From: Actinomycetota bacterium
GTDB taxonomy: Bacteria; Actinomycetota; Thermoleophilia; Miltoncostaeales; Miltoncostaeaceae
Length of the DNA stretch: 64,000 bases
Assembly: GCA_963169235.1 (NCBI GenBank)
Contig: CAUJCX010000055.1
Coordinates: 1 to 64,000, forward strand
Direction of reading: 5' to 3'
Part shown: positions 6,579 to 61,082 of the stretch, in pieces
Layout of the letters: every line of letters begins with the position of its first letter
Numbering within the stretch: position 1 is the stretch's first letter
Position numbers and translations under genes: made by a program
Notes under the pieces: model-generated
What the model was told of the DNA's origin: nothing
Seen by the model: only the letters and a program-made list of their open reading frames with translations
Databases searched by the model: none

Positions 6579-6685
6579 CTCCAGTTCATCGGTCAGGCCC
6601 GCCGGTAAATGATGGGAATGGGCAAAATCTCGCCGCACCGCCGGGTTTTTCCCCAGGGCCCGCGGCCGATCCCGCGCCCCGGCGA

Positions 6686-42237: not shown

Positions 42238-42264
42238 TCATCGGCCGTTCGCGCGAAAAGTTGA
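42238..42264 (-). promoter_or_regulatory. Sigma-28-type promoter of flhB
   Basis: On the minus strand: TCAA, 15 bp, GCCGATGA. The -10 ends 112 nt before the flhB start. Same element as seven others in this window (see findings). Confidence 0.75.
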
Positions 42265-46597: not shown

Positions 46598-47590
46598 CTA
46601 GGCCGGCTTGCGGTAGAAGAACGTGCCGGACTTCTCCCAGCCCGAGGTCTCGGCGTTGTTGACCCGCTCCGTGGAGCCGATGAACAGGATGCCGCCGGGA
46701 CGCAGGGCGTCGTAGAAGCGCTTGTACAGCACGTCCTTTACGTCGTCGTTGAAGTAGATGACGACGTTGCGGCACGCGATCAGGTCGAAGCCCGACGTGA
46801 ACGAGTCGCGCAAGAGGTCCATCTGACGGAACGTGACGGCCTTGCGCAGCTCGGGCGACACCTGCCACGTCACGCCGTCCCCGGGGGCGGCCGACTCGGT
46901 GAACCACTTCTGCCGCCGCGGCGCGGTGACGTTGCGCATGTCGGACGCCGAGAACTTCCCCTCCTTGGCGCGCGCCAGGATGCGGTTGTCGATGTCGGCG
47001 GCCTGCACGTCGTGGCGCCCGTTCGGGGCCAGCTCGCGCAGCAGGATCAGCAGCGAGTACACCTCGGCGCCGTACGAGCACCCGGCGCTCCACACCTTCA
47101 GGTTGCCGCCCCCCTGCTTCAGCAGGGTGGGGAGGATCTGCTTCTCGACGTCGGCGAAGCGCTCCGGGTTGCGGAACAGCTCGGACACGTTGATGGTCAT
47201 GCGGTCGAGGAACGCGTCCATCGCGGCCGGGTCCTTGCGCAGCCACGCCAGGTACGCGTCGAGGTCCTTCTGCCCCTGCCGCTGGGCGAACGAGCGCAGG
47301 CGGCGCTCCATCTGGCCCGGGCGGTACTGGCCCAGGTCGATGCCCGTCGCCGCGCGCACGCCGTCGCAGAAGCGGACGTACTCGGGCGATCCGTTGCCCG
47401 AGCCGGACGCCGCAGGCGCCGCCGACGCGCGGGGCGCAGCAGTGGTGCCGGCGCTCGCCGACGCGCGGGGCGTGGCGGAGGCGGACGCGGAGCGGGCCGG
47501 AACCGCCGGGCGCGAAGCCGAGGCGGGACGGGCCGGGGTGCGCCGGGTGCTGGGCACGCCGCGACCAGGGGTGCGGGGAGAAAGGGTCAT
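46598..47590 (-). CDS. cheR: Chemoreceptor methyltransferase CheR with disordered N-terminus
   Basis: 330 residues. The first 60 or so are Ser/Ala/Pro/Arg-rich and disordered, absent from ordinary CheR. Then the CheR helical domain and SAM domain: TINVSELFRNPERF, VWSAGCSYGAEVYSL (usually SAGCSTGEE), DIDNRILARA, CRNVVIYFN. Methylates receptor Glu residues. A sigma-28-type -10 ends 7 nt before the ATG, predicting a leaderless mRNA. Confidence 0.94.
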   Translation of the reverse strand: MTLSPRTPGRGVPSTRRTPARPASASRPAVPARSASASATPRASASAGTTAAPRASAAPAASGSGNGSPEYVRFCDGVRAATGIDLGQYRPGQMERRLRSFAQRQGQKDLDAYLAWLRKDPAAMDAFLDRMTINVSELFRNPERFADVEKQILPTLLKQGGGNLKVWSAGCSYGAEVYSLLILLRELAPNGRHDVQAADIDNRILARAKEGKFSASDMRNVTAPRRQKWFTESAAPGDGVTWQVSPELRKAVTFRQMDLLRDSFTSGFDLIACRNVVIYFNDDVKDVLYKRFYDALRPGGILFIGSTERVNNAETSGWEKSGTFFYRKPA

Positions 47591-47597
47591 GCAGATG

Positions 47598-47624
47598 CTA
47601 TCGGCGTCTGCGCGCCGGGCTTGA
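47598..47624 (-). promoter_or_regulatory. Sigma-28-type promoter of cheR
   Basis: TCAA, 15 bp, GCCGATAG. Seven nt separate the -10 from the cheR ATG, so transcription is expected to start at or within 1-2 nt of the start codon. Confidence 0.8.
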
Positions 47625-51417: not shown

Positions 51418-51777
51418 CTACGCGAGCGCCTTGGAGATGGCCTCGAGGACGCGCTCCGGCTGGAAGGGCTTCACGATGAAGTCCTTGGCACCAGCCTGGA
51501 TGCTCTCGATCACCATGGACTGCTGGCCCATGGCCGAGCACATGACCACGCGCGCGGCGGGGTTGTGCGAGCGGATCTCCTTGAGCGCCTGGAGTCCGTC
51601 CATCTCGGGCATGGTGATGTCCATCGTGGTCAGATCGGGGTTGAGCTCCTTGTACTTGGCCACGGCAACAGCGCCGTTCTCGGCCTCGCCCAGGATTTCG
51701 TACCCGGCCTCCGAGAGGATGTTCTTGATCATCATGCGCATGAACGCCGCATCATCTGCGATCAGCACAGAAGGCAT
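51418..51777 (-). CDS. cheY: Chemotaxis response regulator CheY
   Basis: 119 residues, receiver only. IADDAAFMRMM start, phospho-Asp in TTMDITMPEMDG, Thr/Ser in VMCSAMGQ and Lys in FIVKPFQ. Binds FliM to change motor direction; dephosphorylated by CheC and FliY. Own sigma-28-type promoter 37 nt upstream. Confidence 0.96.
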   Translation of the reverse strand: MPSVLIADDAAFMRMMIKNILSEAGYEILGEAENGAVAVAKYKELNPDLTTMDITMPEMDGLQALKEIRSHNPAARVVMCSAMGQQSMVIESIQAGAKDFIVKPFQPERVLEAISKALA

Positions 51778-51814: not shown

Positions 51815-51841
51815 CTATCGGCATTTGCTCGCGCGGGTTGA
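51815..51841 (-). promoter_or_regulatory. Sigma-28-type promoter of cheY-fliO-P-Q-R-cheB
   Basis: TCAA, 15 bp, GCCGATAG; -10 ends 37 nt before the cheY ATG and lies in the 101-nt gap after fliY. Confidence 0.8.
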
Positions 51842-51878: not shown

Positions 51879-53111
51879 TTAGTCGGCCAGGCCCTGCAGT
51901 CGGCTTGCCTGCGAGGCGATCTCGGTGATGCGGATGCCGAACTCCTCATCGATCACCACCACCTCCCCGCGGGCGATGTGCTTGCCATTGACCAGCACAT
52001 CGATCGGCTCGCCCGCCAAGCGGTCGAGTTCGATGATCGAGCCGGGAACCAGCTCGAGAACGTTGCGAATGCGCAGCTCGGTGCGCCCCAGCTCGACGCT
52101 CACGTTGAGCGGCACGTCGAGTAGCAGCCCGATGTCGCCGGCCACGGCGGCGGGCGCCGGGTCGGACAGGGCCGGGAACGACACCGACTGGGCGACGGGC
52201 GGGGGGCCCGCGGCGACCGGCGGCGGGGCCGCGGCGGGCGGCGGGGCCGCAGCCGGCGGCGGGGCCGCGGCGGGCGCGGCAGCAGGAGCAGCGGCCGGGG
52301 CCGGGGCCGGCTCGGGCGCGGGGGCCGCGGCGGGCGGCGGCGCCGAGTTCATCAGGCCGTCGATGAGCTCCTTGGCGAAGTCCACCGGCATCAGCTGCAT
52401 CAGCGTCGTCGACAGCAGGTCGCCGACGTCCAGGCGGAACGAGGCGGCGACGGCCGGCTGGCCGCTCCCCACCACGTCCAGCTGCGCGTCGTCGGCGGTC
52501 AGGTCGAGTGCCGACACCTCGGGGGCCGAGATGTCCACGCGCCGGCCGAACATGCCGGCCATCGCGGTGGCGGCGGCGCCCATCATCTGGTTCATCGACT
52601 CGCCCAGAGCCGACAGCTGGATCTCGTCCAGCGGGCCGTCCGACGGGGTGCCGGAGCCGCCCATCATCAGGTCGGCGACCACGGACGCGTCGGACGTGGA
52701 GATCACGAACACGTTGGCGCCGTGGAGGCCCTCGGTGTAGCTGATCCGCACCAGCGCCGCGGGGCGGTCGTAGGCGGCGATGATCTGCTCTTCGGTCACC
52801 ACGCTGACCGTGGGCGTGCTGATGACGGCCTGGTGGCCCAGCAGCATGCTCAGCGTCGTCGCGGCACTCGCCATGGAGATGTTGCCGATCTCGCCCAGCG
52901 CATCGCGCTCGTCGGCGGTCAGCAGGTCCTGAAGCCCGGGGTCGCCCACGAGCTCGGGCAGCGACTCGGCCACCACGTGGCCGGAACCGGACGCGGCGTC
53001 CGCCTCGTCCACGGCGACGGGCTCGGGCGGCGCAGCGGCTGCGGCCTGCTCGTCTCCCCCACCGTTGAGGAGGGCGTCGATCTCTTCCTGCGACAGGCTG
53101 CCGTCGCTCAT
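51879..53111 (-). CDS. fliY: Flagellar switch protein FliY (CheC-like phosphatase plus FliN)
   Basis: 410 residues. N-terminal peptide SQEEIDALLNGG, CheC-like domain (about 60-250) with ALGEIGNISMASAA and ALGESMNQMMGAA motifs, a 65-residue Ala/Pro linker, and a C-terminal FliN/SpoA domain with LLLDVPLNVSVELGRT and NGKHIARGEVVVIDEEFGIRI (in parts). Both a CheY-P phosphatase and part of the C-ring. ATGA overlap with fliM. Confidence 0.94.
   Translation of the reverse strand: MSDGSLSQEEIDALLNGGGDEQAAAAAPPEPVAVDEADAASGSGHVVAESLPELVGDPGLQDLLTADERDALGEIGNISMASAATTLSMLLGHQAVISTPTVSVVTEEQIIAAYDRPAALVRISYTEGLHGANVFVISTSDASVVADLMMGGSGTPSDGPLDEIQLSALGESMNQMMGAAATAMAGMFGRRVDISAPEVSALDLTADDAQLDVVGSGQPAVAASFRLDVGDLLSTTLMQLMPVDFAKELIDGLMNSAPPPAAAPAPEPAPAPAAAPAAAPAAAPPPAAAPPPAAAPPPVAAGPPPVAQSVSFPALSDPAPAAVAGDIGLLLDVPLNVSVELGRTELRIRNVLELVPGSIIELDRLAGEPIDVLVNGKHIARGEVVVIDEEFGIRITEIASQASRLQGLAD
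52180..52350 (-). repeat. Low-complexity Ala/Pro linker repeat in fliY
   Basis: GC-only, near-repeating units of about 15-21 bp encode Ala/Pro runs (APPPAAAPPPAAAPPPVAA and similar). Such repeats change length easily by slippage. Confidence 0.7.
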
Positions 53112-54106
53112 GCGGGGACTCCTTGGGGGTACTCGTCAAGGGGACGGGTGATCTGGACGGCGAGGCGGCGCCCGCGGGTGCCCGGCTGCGCCAGGAACGC
53201 GTCGAGCTCGCCGACGCGCACATGCACGTCCTGGCCGGGCGTCCGGTCGAGGGGGATCACGTCGCCGGGCGTCAACGCCATCAGGTCGGCGACGCTGAGC
53301 GTAGTGCCGCCGAGCGCCACGGAGACGGGCACGGACGCGGACGACAGGCTGTGCACGAGGCTCTCGCGCATCCCGGGGCCGGACGACTCCGCCTCACGGG
53401 AGTAGTAGCTCTGGGCGTTGAGGCCGCCCAGGACGGGCTCGAGGACCAGGTGCGGGATGCACAGGTTCACCATCCCGGTCACCGTCCCGATCTTCATCTC
53501 GAAGCTGATCAGCACCGCCATGTCACCGGGAGCGGCGACCTGGGCGAACTGTGGGTTCATCTCCACGTGCTCGTCGTGGAAGTCGATCTCGGCCACCTGG
53601 GACCACGCCTCGCGCAGACCGCGCAGGAGGGTCTCGATGAGGTTGCGCGTCAGCGCCACCTCGATCTCGGTGAGCTCGCGCATCTTGCCGCGGTACGCGC
53701 CCGGGCCACCCACCATGCGGTCGATCACCGACAGCGCCAGCGGCAGGTTCATCTCCATCAGGGCGTTGCCCTTGAGCGGGCTCATCGACAGCACGTTGAT
53801 GAGCGTCGGGAACGGCATCGAGCGCACGAACTCCCCGTAGCTCACCTGGTCGGCGCTGGTCACGGTGATCTCCACCAGCGTCCGCAGCTGCGCCGCCAGC
53901 GTCGTCTGCACGACGCGGCAGAACGTCTCGTGCAGCATCTCGAGCGTCCGCAGCTGGTCCTTGTTGAACTTGCTGGGGCGTTCGAAGTCGAACGGCCGCA
54001 CCTGGGCCGCCTCCGACTCCTCCTGGATCGTCGAGGCGTCCAGGTCACCGGTCGAGATGGCGCTGAGCAGCGCATCGATCTCCGCTTGTGAAAGTACCTC
54101 GGACAC
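53108..54106 (-). CDS. fliM: Flagellar motor switch protein FliM
   Basis: 332 residues from GTG 54106. N-terminal CheY-P-binding peptide VLSQAEIDALLSAI, middle CheC-like domain (GPGAYRGKMRELTEIE) and C-terminal SpoA domain. Rotor C-ring subunit. A sigma-28-type -10 ends 7 nt before the GTG, so the mRNA is probably leaderless. Confidence 0.96.
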   Translation of the reverse strand: MSEVLSQAEIDALLSAISTGDLDASTIQEESEAAQVRPFDFERPSKFNKDQLRTLEMLHETFCRVVQTTLAAQLRTLVEITVTSADQVSYGEFVRSMPFPTLINVLSMSPLKGNALMEMNLPLALSVIDRMVGGPGAYRGKMRELTEIEVALTRNLIETLLRGLREAWSQVAEIDFHDEHVEMNPQFAQVAAPGDMAVLISFEMKIGTVTGMVNLCIPHLVLEPVLGGLNAQSYYSREAESSGPGMRESLVHSLSSASVPVSVALGGTTLSVADLMALTPGDVIPLDRTPGQDVHVRVGELDAFLAQPGTRGRRLAVQITRPLDEYPQGVPA

Positions 54107-54113
54107 GCCGTTT

Positions 54114-54140
54114 CCATCGACCGGTGGCGAGCAAAGTTGA
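54114..54140 (-). promoter_or_regulatory. Sigma-28-type promoter of fliM-fliY
   Basis: TCAA, 15 bp, GTCGATGG (two mismatches to the -10 of the others). Seven nt to the fliM GTG. Confidence 0.65.
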
Positions 54141-56834: not shown

Positions 56835-57053
56835 CTACTCGGGCTGCGCCAGCGCGACCGCGCTGATCGGGACGCCCGCGGTGGTCTTGCGGTACGCGAT
56901 CACCTTCGCGACGACCTCGTCGACCGACTCGGTCACCAGCATGCGGCGCCGGTCGATCAGGGCGATCGTGGTGTCGGGCGTGGCCTCGAGGGTCTCGATG
57001 AGCTCGGCGTTCAGCACGAACTCGCCGCCGCCCAGCTTGTGAAGGGTGATCAC
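56835..57053 (-). CDS. flbD: FlbD/SwrD-type flagellar protein
   Basis: 72 residues, starting MITLHKLGGGEFVLNAELIETLEATPDTT, the FlbD/SwrD signature. In Bacillus, SwrD helps motor power by raising stator levels, in keeping with its place just before motA and motB. Starts after its own promoter; the stop is 36 nt before motA. Confidence 0.93.
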   Translation of the reverse strand: MITLHKLGGGEFVLNAELIETLEATPDTTIALIDRRRMLVTESVDEVVAKVIAYRKTTAGVPISAVALAQPE

Positions 57054-57112: not shown

Positions 57113-57140
57113 CTATCGGCGTCGCGGCGGCCCGGATTGA
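57113..57140 (-). promoter_or_regulatory. Sigma-28-type promoter of flbD-motA-motB-fliL
   Basis: TCAA, 16 bp, GCCGATAG; -10 ends 59 nt before flbD. It lies 14 nt after the flgE terminator. Confidence 0.8.
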
Positions 57141-60561: not shown

Positions 60562-61047
60562 CTACGCCGCGGCGCCGGCGGGCGAGGGCCCGCGACGGGA
60601 GCCGCCCGTGCGCATCGCGCGGCGGGTCGCCAGCTCGTCGAGGACCTCCTGCTCGCGCCGGTTCTCCTCGTGGCGGAACGCCTCCTCGGCGCGGCGGCGC
60701 AGCCCGTCGAGCGCCTCGCGGTCACGGCTCGCCTGGATCAGTTCGCCGCGACGGTCCTCGGCGATCTCCTCCATGCGCAGCACCATCTCGCGCTCGTGCT
60801 CGGCGACCCGGCGCAGGCGGCCGATCTCGTCGTTCATCGCGCGCAGCTCGAGGATCTGCATCGCCTGGCCGCCCGCCATGCGGGTGGACTCCACGGCGGC
60901 CTCCACGGCCTGCCGTGCGGCCTCGGCGCGCTCCTGCTGCTCGGCGGCGGCGCGGATGGCCTGGGCCAGCTCGCCCTGCACGGTCTCCTCGCGCCGGCGA
61001 CGGATCTCCAGCACGGGATCGAGGCGGAATGTGAACAGTCGTCCCAC
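60562..61047 (-). CDS. fliJ: Flagellar export chaperone FliJ
   Basis: 161 residues from GTG 61047, almost all coiled coil, starting RLFTFRLDPVLEIRRRREE. Binds the FliI ATPase and FlhA; fliI is not next to it, which is unusual. A sigma-28-type -10 ends 7 nt before the start, so the mRNA should be leaderless. Confidence 0.9.
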   Translation of the reverse strand: MGRLFTFRLDPVLEIRRRREETVQGELAQAIRAAAEQQERAEAARQAVEAAVESTRMAGGQAMQILELRAMNDEIGRLRRVAEHEREMVLRMEEIAEDRRGELIQASRDREALDGLRRRAEEAFRHEENRREQEVLDELATRRAMRTGGSRRGPSPAGAAA

Positions 61048-61054
61048 GTGGCCG

Positions 61055-61082
61055 GTATCGGCGGTTGACGCGTGGTTCTTGA
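61055..61082 (-). promoter_or_regulatory. Sigma-28-type promoter of fliJ
   Basis: TCAA, 16 bp, GCCGATAC; 7 nt to the fliJ GTG. Confidence 0.75.

Follow-up and report, generated by a model that had tools for sequence, protein, structure and literature searches.

At the chemotaxis gene cheR and the flagellar genes fliM and fliJ, all located in the 64,000-nucleotide stretch of DNA from a Thermoleophilia bacterium analyzed here (the window), 7 nt separate the start codon from the -10 octamer of a sigma-28 type promoter. Judging from the sequence, these genes are in all likelihood read by a FliA/WhiG-type sigma factor from start-adjacent promoters into leaderless mRNAs. For fliM and fliJ there is good support for leaderless transcription, which is likely for cheR too, with predicted 5' ends in each case.

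Start codons and promoter boxes of cheR, fliM and fliJ

All three genes are on the minus strand. The cheR gene (46598..47590) encodes a 330 aa protein from an ATG start, with matches to Pfam CheR (2e-49) and CheR_N. The fliM gene (53108..54106; 332 aa) and the fliJ gene (60562..61047; 161 aa; Pfam FliJ 8e-13) start with GTG, and their products begin VSEVLSQAEIDALL and VGRLFTFRLDPVL, respectively. The surrounding cluster also encodes FliP, FliR, FlhA, FlhB, FlhF, MotA, MotB and FliL, as well as FliK, CheA, CheB, CheC, CheD and CheY. These domain matches and the flagellar and chemotaxis neighborhood agree with the gene identities given in an initial annotation of the window. Since the N-terminus of FliM aligns with those of relatives from residue 1, and the FliJ starts of relatives align likewise, this comparison makes the predicted starts of both proteins (SEVLSQAEIDALL in FliM, FTFRLDPVL in FliJ) secure. 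The FliM N-terminus, VSEVLSQAEIDALL, is the canonical CheY-binding one.

The cheR promoter (47598..47624, minus strand) consists of TCAA at 47624-47621, a 16-nt spacer and a YCGATR element within the octamer GCCGATAG (47605-47598), which is followed by 7 nt, CATCTGC, and the ATG at 47590. In the fliM promoter (54114..54140, minus strand), TCAA is at 54140-54137 and the octamer GTCGATGG at 54121-54114, followed by AAACGGC and the GTG at 54106. The fliJ promoter (61055..61082, minus strand) has TCAA at 61082-61079 and the octamer GCCGATAC at 61062-61055, followed by CGGCCAC and the GTG at 61047. The TCAA is thus 16-17 nt 5' to YCGATR in the three promoters (TCAA-N16/17-YCGATR), and the start codon is 7 nt from the end of the octamer, or 8 nt from the end of YCGATR, as the initial annotation had described for all three genes. 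The window contains 4 matches to the strict form TCAA-N14-17-GCCGATA, where 0.01 would be expected, and each of them lies 5' to flagellar or chemotaxis genes. A -35 element and a GCCGATAA-type -10 at the proper spacing are what characterizes a sigma-28 (FliA/WhiG) regulon, and the genome encodes a cognate sigma factor: one FliA_WhiG gene, on contig C8, scores above the curated cut-off (TIGR02479, 281 bits vs 189.6). A weak sigma-28-like site, ACCGATGA, with TCAT as its -35, was seen at window positions 6586-6615 (minus strand), 7 nt 5' to the GTG of a 391-aa frame; it may be a chance match.

The distance of 6-8 nt from the -10 to the transcription start, on which the initial annotation relied, agrees with published sigma-28 sites. 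In Campylobacter, CGATwt is 6-8 nt 5' to the mapped transcription start (PMC3847290), and E. coli aer transcription starts 6 bp past the octamer (PMC2859248). The 7 nt that follow the octamer in cheR, fliM and fliJ fall within this range, so that the predicted 5' end coincides with the start codon to within about 1 nt. The term leaderless is still applied to a message with a 1-nt leader, that of Actinoplanes atsA (PMC11064477).

For cheR the choice of start codon needs closer scrutiny. Its product has a low-complexity N-terminal extension of about 62 residues, rich in Ala, Ser, Pro and Arg (window 47404-47590), before CheR_N, and in-frame starts before the CheR domain are limited to ATG1 and a GTG at codon 12. 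Translation from GTG12 would give the cheR mRNA a leader of about 33 nt. The low complexity of the extension is compatible with this, and the codon-usage score mildly prefers GTG12 (122 vs 118 for ATG1), which makes cheR the weakest of the three cases. However, no Shine-Dalgarno site was found before GTG12, nor before ATG1, and in two relatives (G006 and G015) the cheR ATG is 8 nt after GCCGATC, matching the window distance, and opens a protein beginning MSL..SPRR, which resembles the MTL.SPRT of the window. The -35 of these two promoters is TTGA, not TCAA. A start at GTG12 is therefore unlikely, and the ATG, backed by these two relatives only, is the probable cheR start. A similar N-terminal extension, of about 46 residues, is seen in the CheR of G010. 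A search with the CheR domain alone did not find CheR in G001, the nearest relative.

Ribosome binding and the genome-wide start signature

Judged by the energy of duplex formation with the anti-Shine-Dalgarno sequence at positions -20 to -5, the window's cheR, fliM and fliJ have no usable Shine-Dalgarno site: the values are +0.3, -3.3 and -1.1 kcal/mol, respectively, whereas those of the leadered controls range from -4.9 to -11.3 kcal/mol. A C at position -1 was considered as an initiator signature and rejected, as genes with Shine-Dalgarno sites show an equal C bias.

The three messages might instead have short leaders, with transcription starting 3-6 nt 5' to the start codon, right after the -10, and a G-rich discriminator aiding ribosome binding. 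Some relatives do have a G-rich 7-nt discriminator (AGGGGC, AAGGAGGC), which could resemble a Shine-Dalgarno site 1 nt from the start, as in AAGGAGGC-GTG (G041 fliJ); several relatives with a box-proximal start have anti-Shine-Dalgarno energies of -5 to -9.8, which derive in part from promoter bases outside the predicted transcript. But the discriminators of the window (CATCTGC, AAACGGC and CGGCCAC) are not Shine-Dalgarno-like, and such a site would need more than 0-1 nt between itself and the start codon. Short leaders would also require initiation 1-4 nt past the octamer rather than at the published 6-8 nt, and we consider them very unlikely.

Leaderless initiation also has a signature in the genome at large. 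In a sample of 475 kb, 400 kb of it taken as stretches, 441 genes were called with a home-made codon model. The housekeeping -10 motif TANNNT preceded candidate ATG or GTG starts 28, 26, 14, 8 and 8 times at distances of 6, 7, 8, 9 and 10 nt, respectively, compared with about 2 times at other distances. It occurs at 6-10 nt in 82 of the 441 genes (about 19%), and a Shine-Dalgarno site is present in 5 of these, compared with 126 of the 359 others (p = 1.7e-8). The sigma-28 -10 and the housekeeping -10 of the TANNNT genes are equally far from the start, and the flagellar loci of relatives show the same TANNNT peak at 6-8 nt, in small counts. By this signature the organism appears to use leaderless initiation for about a fifth of its genes. 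The GTG starts, which the initial annotation had pointed out in two of the three leaderless candidates, turn out to be unremarkable, since GTG (44) and ATG (38) are equally common among the 82 TANNNT genes.

We propose that a FliA/WhiG-type sigma factor recognizes the cheR, fliM and fliJ promoters and that, given the 7 nt between octamer and start codon, RNA polymerase would initiate at, or about 1-2 nt from, the A or G of that codon to produce a leaderless mRNA. Ribosomes would then initiate on the RTG codons at the 5' ends with no Shine-Dalgarno site, which they seemingly do for about a fifth of the genome, and other genes of the regulon would be leadered. Everything that this predicts at the level of sequence (starts, spacing, lack of Shine-Dalgarno sites, genome signature and start-site distance) was found, and the support for leaderless messages is strong but indirect.

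Leadered genes and conservation in the family

Three further sigma-28 type promoters of the window's cluster are on the minus strand as well; the leader lengths given for them begin after YCGATR. The cheY promoter (51816..51841) gives a leader of 38 nt with a GAGG Shine-Dalgarno site before the start at 51777, and the promoter at 57114..57140 a leader of 60 nt with GGAGG before the start at 57053 (VITLH); both served as leadered controls. The latter gene is called flbD on the strength of N-terminal resemblance. The flhB promoter (42239..42264) would give a leader of 73 nt or 112 nt, the latter being likelier, since the conserved flhB start is probably 42126 (MSEDRTEKATPKRR) and not 42165. A GTG follows this box after 6 nt but is not in the flhB frame, and flhB was rejected as a fourth leaderless unit. 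The initial annotation had counted five other units with longer leaders; these three are the ones that could be identified with confidence. The leadered sigma-28 members include cheY, flbD, flhB and cheW, with Shine-Dalgarno sites at cheY, flbD and cheW. Orthologs that have the same box and Shine-Dalgarno sites vary in leader length, from 36 to 47 nt for cheY and from 56 to 60 nt for flbD.

Comparison of the -10-to-start distance among orthologs, which the initial annotation had proposed as a check, bears out the fixed spacing. FliM is encoded in 9 of the 42 family genomes examined, and in 8 of these 9 the arrangement CTCAAC-N14-GYCGATRN-N7-GTG precedes fliM with unchanged length. In the gap 5' to fliM the invariant columns are mostly promoter elements: pairwise identity is 100% in the -35 and 83% in the -10 octamer, compared with 52% in the spacer and 37-44% upstream. 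In the ninth genome (G010), the box is about 55 nt 5' to a TTG start, which is preceded by GGAG. The fliJ start is 7-9 nt after YCGATR in all 9 genomes, that is, within +/-1 nt. The distance is 9 nt where the start is an ATG preceded by A, so that transcription beginning 9 nt after YCGATR would have its first base at -1 or 0 even there. Outside the family, the fliM genes of four Thermoleophilia MAGs (RYN), the named relatives all being MAGs of that class, have the box, a leader tens of nucleotides long and a G-rich Shine-Dalgarno site. For cheR, the operonic copy of G019 has a GAGGAG Shine-Dalgarno site. These fliM and cheR comparisons indicate that, for the same gene, a Shine-Dalgarno site is found where there is a leader and, in the window's genome, none where there is no leader.

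It is conceivable that the proximal boxes are secondary and that longer transcripts from upstream (fliL to fliM, cheB to cheR) dominate, so that most mRNA is leadered; fliL and cheB do lie upstream on the same strand, and cheR overlaps or closely follows the upstream gene in G012, G041 and G019, but this is highly improbable, given that the conserved blocks 5' to fliM are promoter elements, that the Shine-Dalgarno site needed by an internal gene, and present at the operonic cheR of G019, is lacking, and that no same-strand flagellar gene is directly upstream of fliJ.

The start-adjacent arrangement recurs elsewhere in the genome. On contig C42 (L012:286-2633), two divergent sigma-28 units, a methyltransferase gene (ATG) and a family 2 glycosyltransferase gene (GTG), each start 8 nt past the box. 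The methyltransferase gene of G001, which shares a contig with fliJ, keeps this spacing, with GTG in place of ATG; the two C42 enzymes possibly serve flagellar glycosylation. Two more genes with this spacing occur in the relatives G012 and G041. One encodes a response regulator that has a LuxR-type domain; the other is glucosaminidase-like (below the Pfam cut-off) and starts with GTG or ATG depending on the genome. Because the spacing recurs at the two further units and in the family orthologs, a chance origin appears unlikely. On the same comparative grounds, since it recurs at other units and in the genomes of relatives, we interpret the leaderless and leadered classes as an ordered feature of the family and not an accident of one genome. 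Of the initial proposal that one sigma factor yields two translation classes in one regulon, the promoter anatomy is real and conserved gene by gene, while the mode of translation is what the anatomy leads us to infer.

Sigma-28 type boxes also precede GGDEF (diguanylate cyclase) genes at three loci of the same genome (L112, L113 and L114), and a gene that starts 66 nt after such a box (L002:1-1434, minus strand) encodes a type IV pilin-like N-terminus (SGFSFIEVLIGIVIL). Some matches to the sigma-28 pattern fall within genes or before non-coding frames; these were left out of the counts.

Relation to known leaderless genes and sigma-28 regulons

Leaderless initiation as such is ordinary for Actinobacteria, for which a signature of leaderless (TA-led) genes has been published (Zheng 2011 PMC3160421). 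In M. tuberculosis, the mapped share of leaderless genes is similar to the TANNNT share found here, and GTG and ATG are used alike (Cortes 2013 PMC3898074). The genes described here share with the TA-led genes a -10 at 6-8 nt, the lack of a Shine-Dalgarno site, the use of both ATG and GTG and a frequency of about a fifth of genes. However, TA-led genes have housekeeping TANNNT promoters, whereas here the -10 is of the sigma-28 type and the class is conserved within a flagellar regulon. As in FliA/SigD promoters (TAAA-N15-GCCGATAA), a GCCGAT -10 is 16-17 nt from a TCAA-type -35, 5' to flagellar and chemotaxis genes; unlike in those promoters, the -35 is TCAA and a subset directly adjoins the start codon.

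The WhiG regulon of Rubrobacter radiotolerans, from a related actinobacterial class, has a flagellar-type consensus, with 12 promoters confirmed by Cappable-seq (PMC8325347). Diguanylate cyclase genes are among its targets, as they are here, but R. radiotolerans WhiG is inferred to control type IV pili rather than flagella; leaderless messages are not mentioned in the parts of that paper's text that were consulted. No report of a leaderless class of sigma-28, FliA or WhiG messages was found in the open-licence papers searched, and the family-conserved split between leaderless and leadered genes within one sigma-28 regulon seems to be unreported.

The split might itself be selected, such that one sigma factor would serve two sets of flagellar genes whose different routes of translation initiation respond differently to growth state. 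This is a rather doubtful proposal; if it holds, the supply of FliM, FliJ and CheR would be set apart from that of CheY, FlbD and FlhB. For gene callers, the findings advise caution against shifting such GTG starts downstream to find a Shine-Dalgarno site. Genes that are leaderless in one genome and have a leader and a Shine-Dalgarno site in another form a natural comparison set for testing how leaderless starts function. With the predicted messages, leaderless expression would reach beyond housekeeping promoters into a conserved flagellar regulon under an alternative sigma factor, in a class of Actinobacteria that has been little studied.
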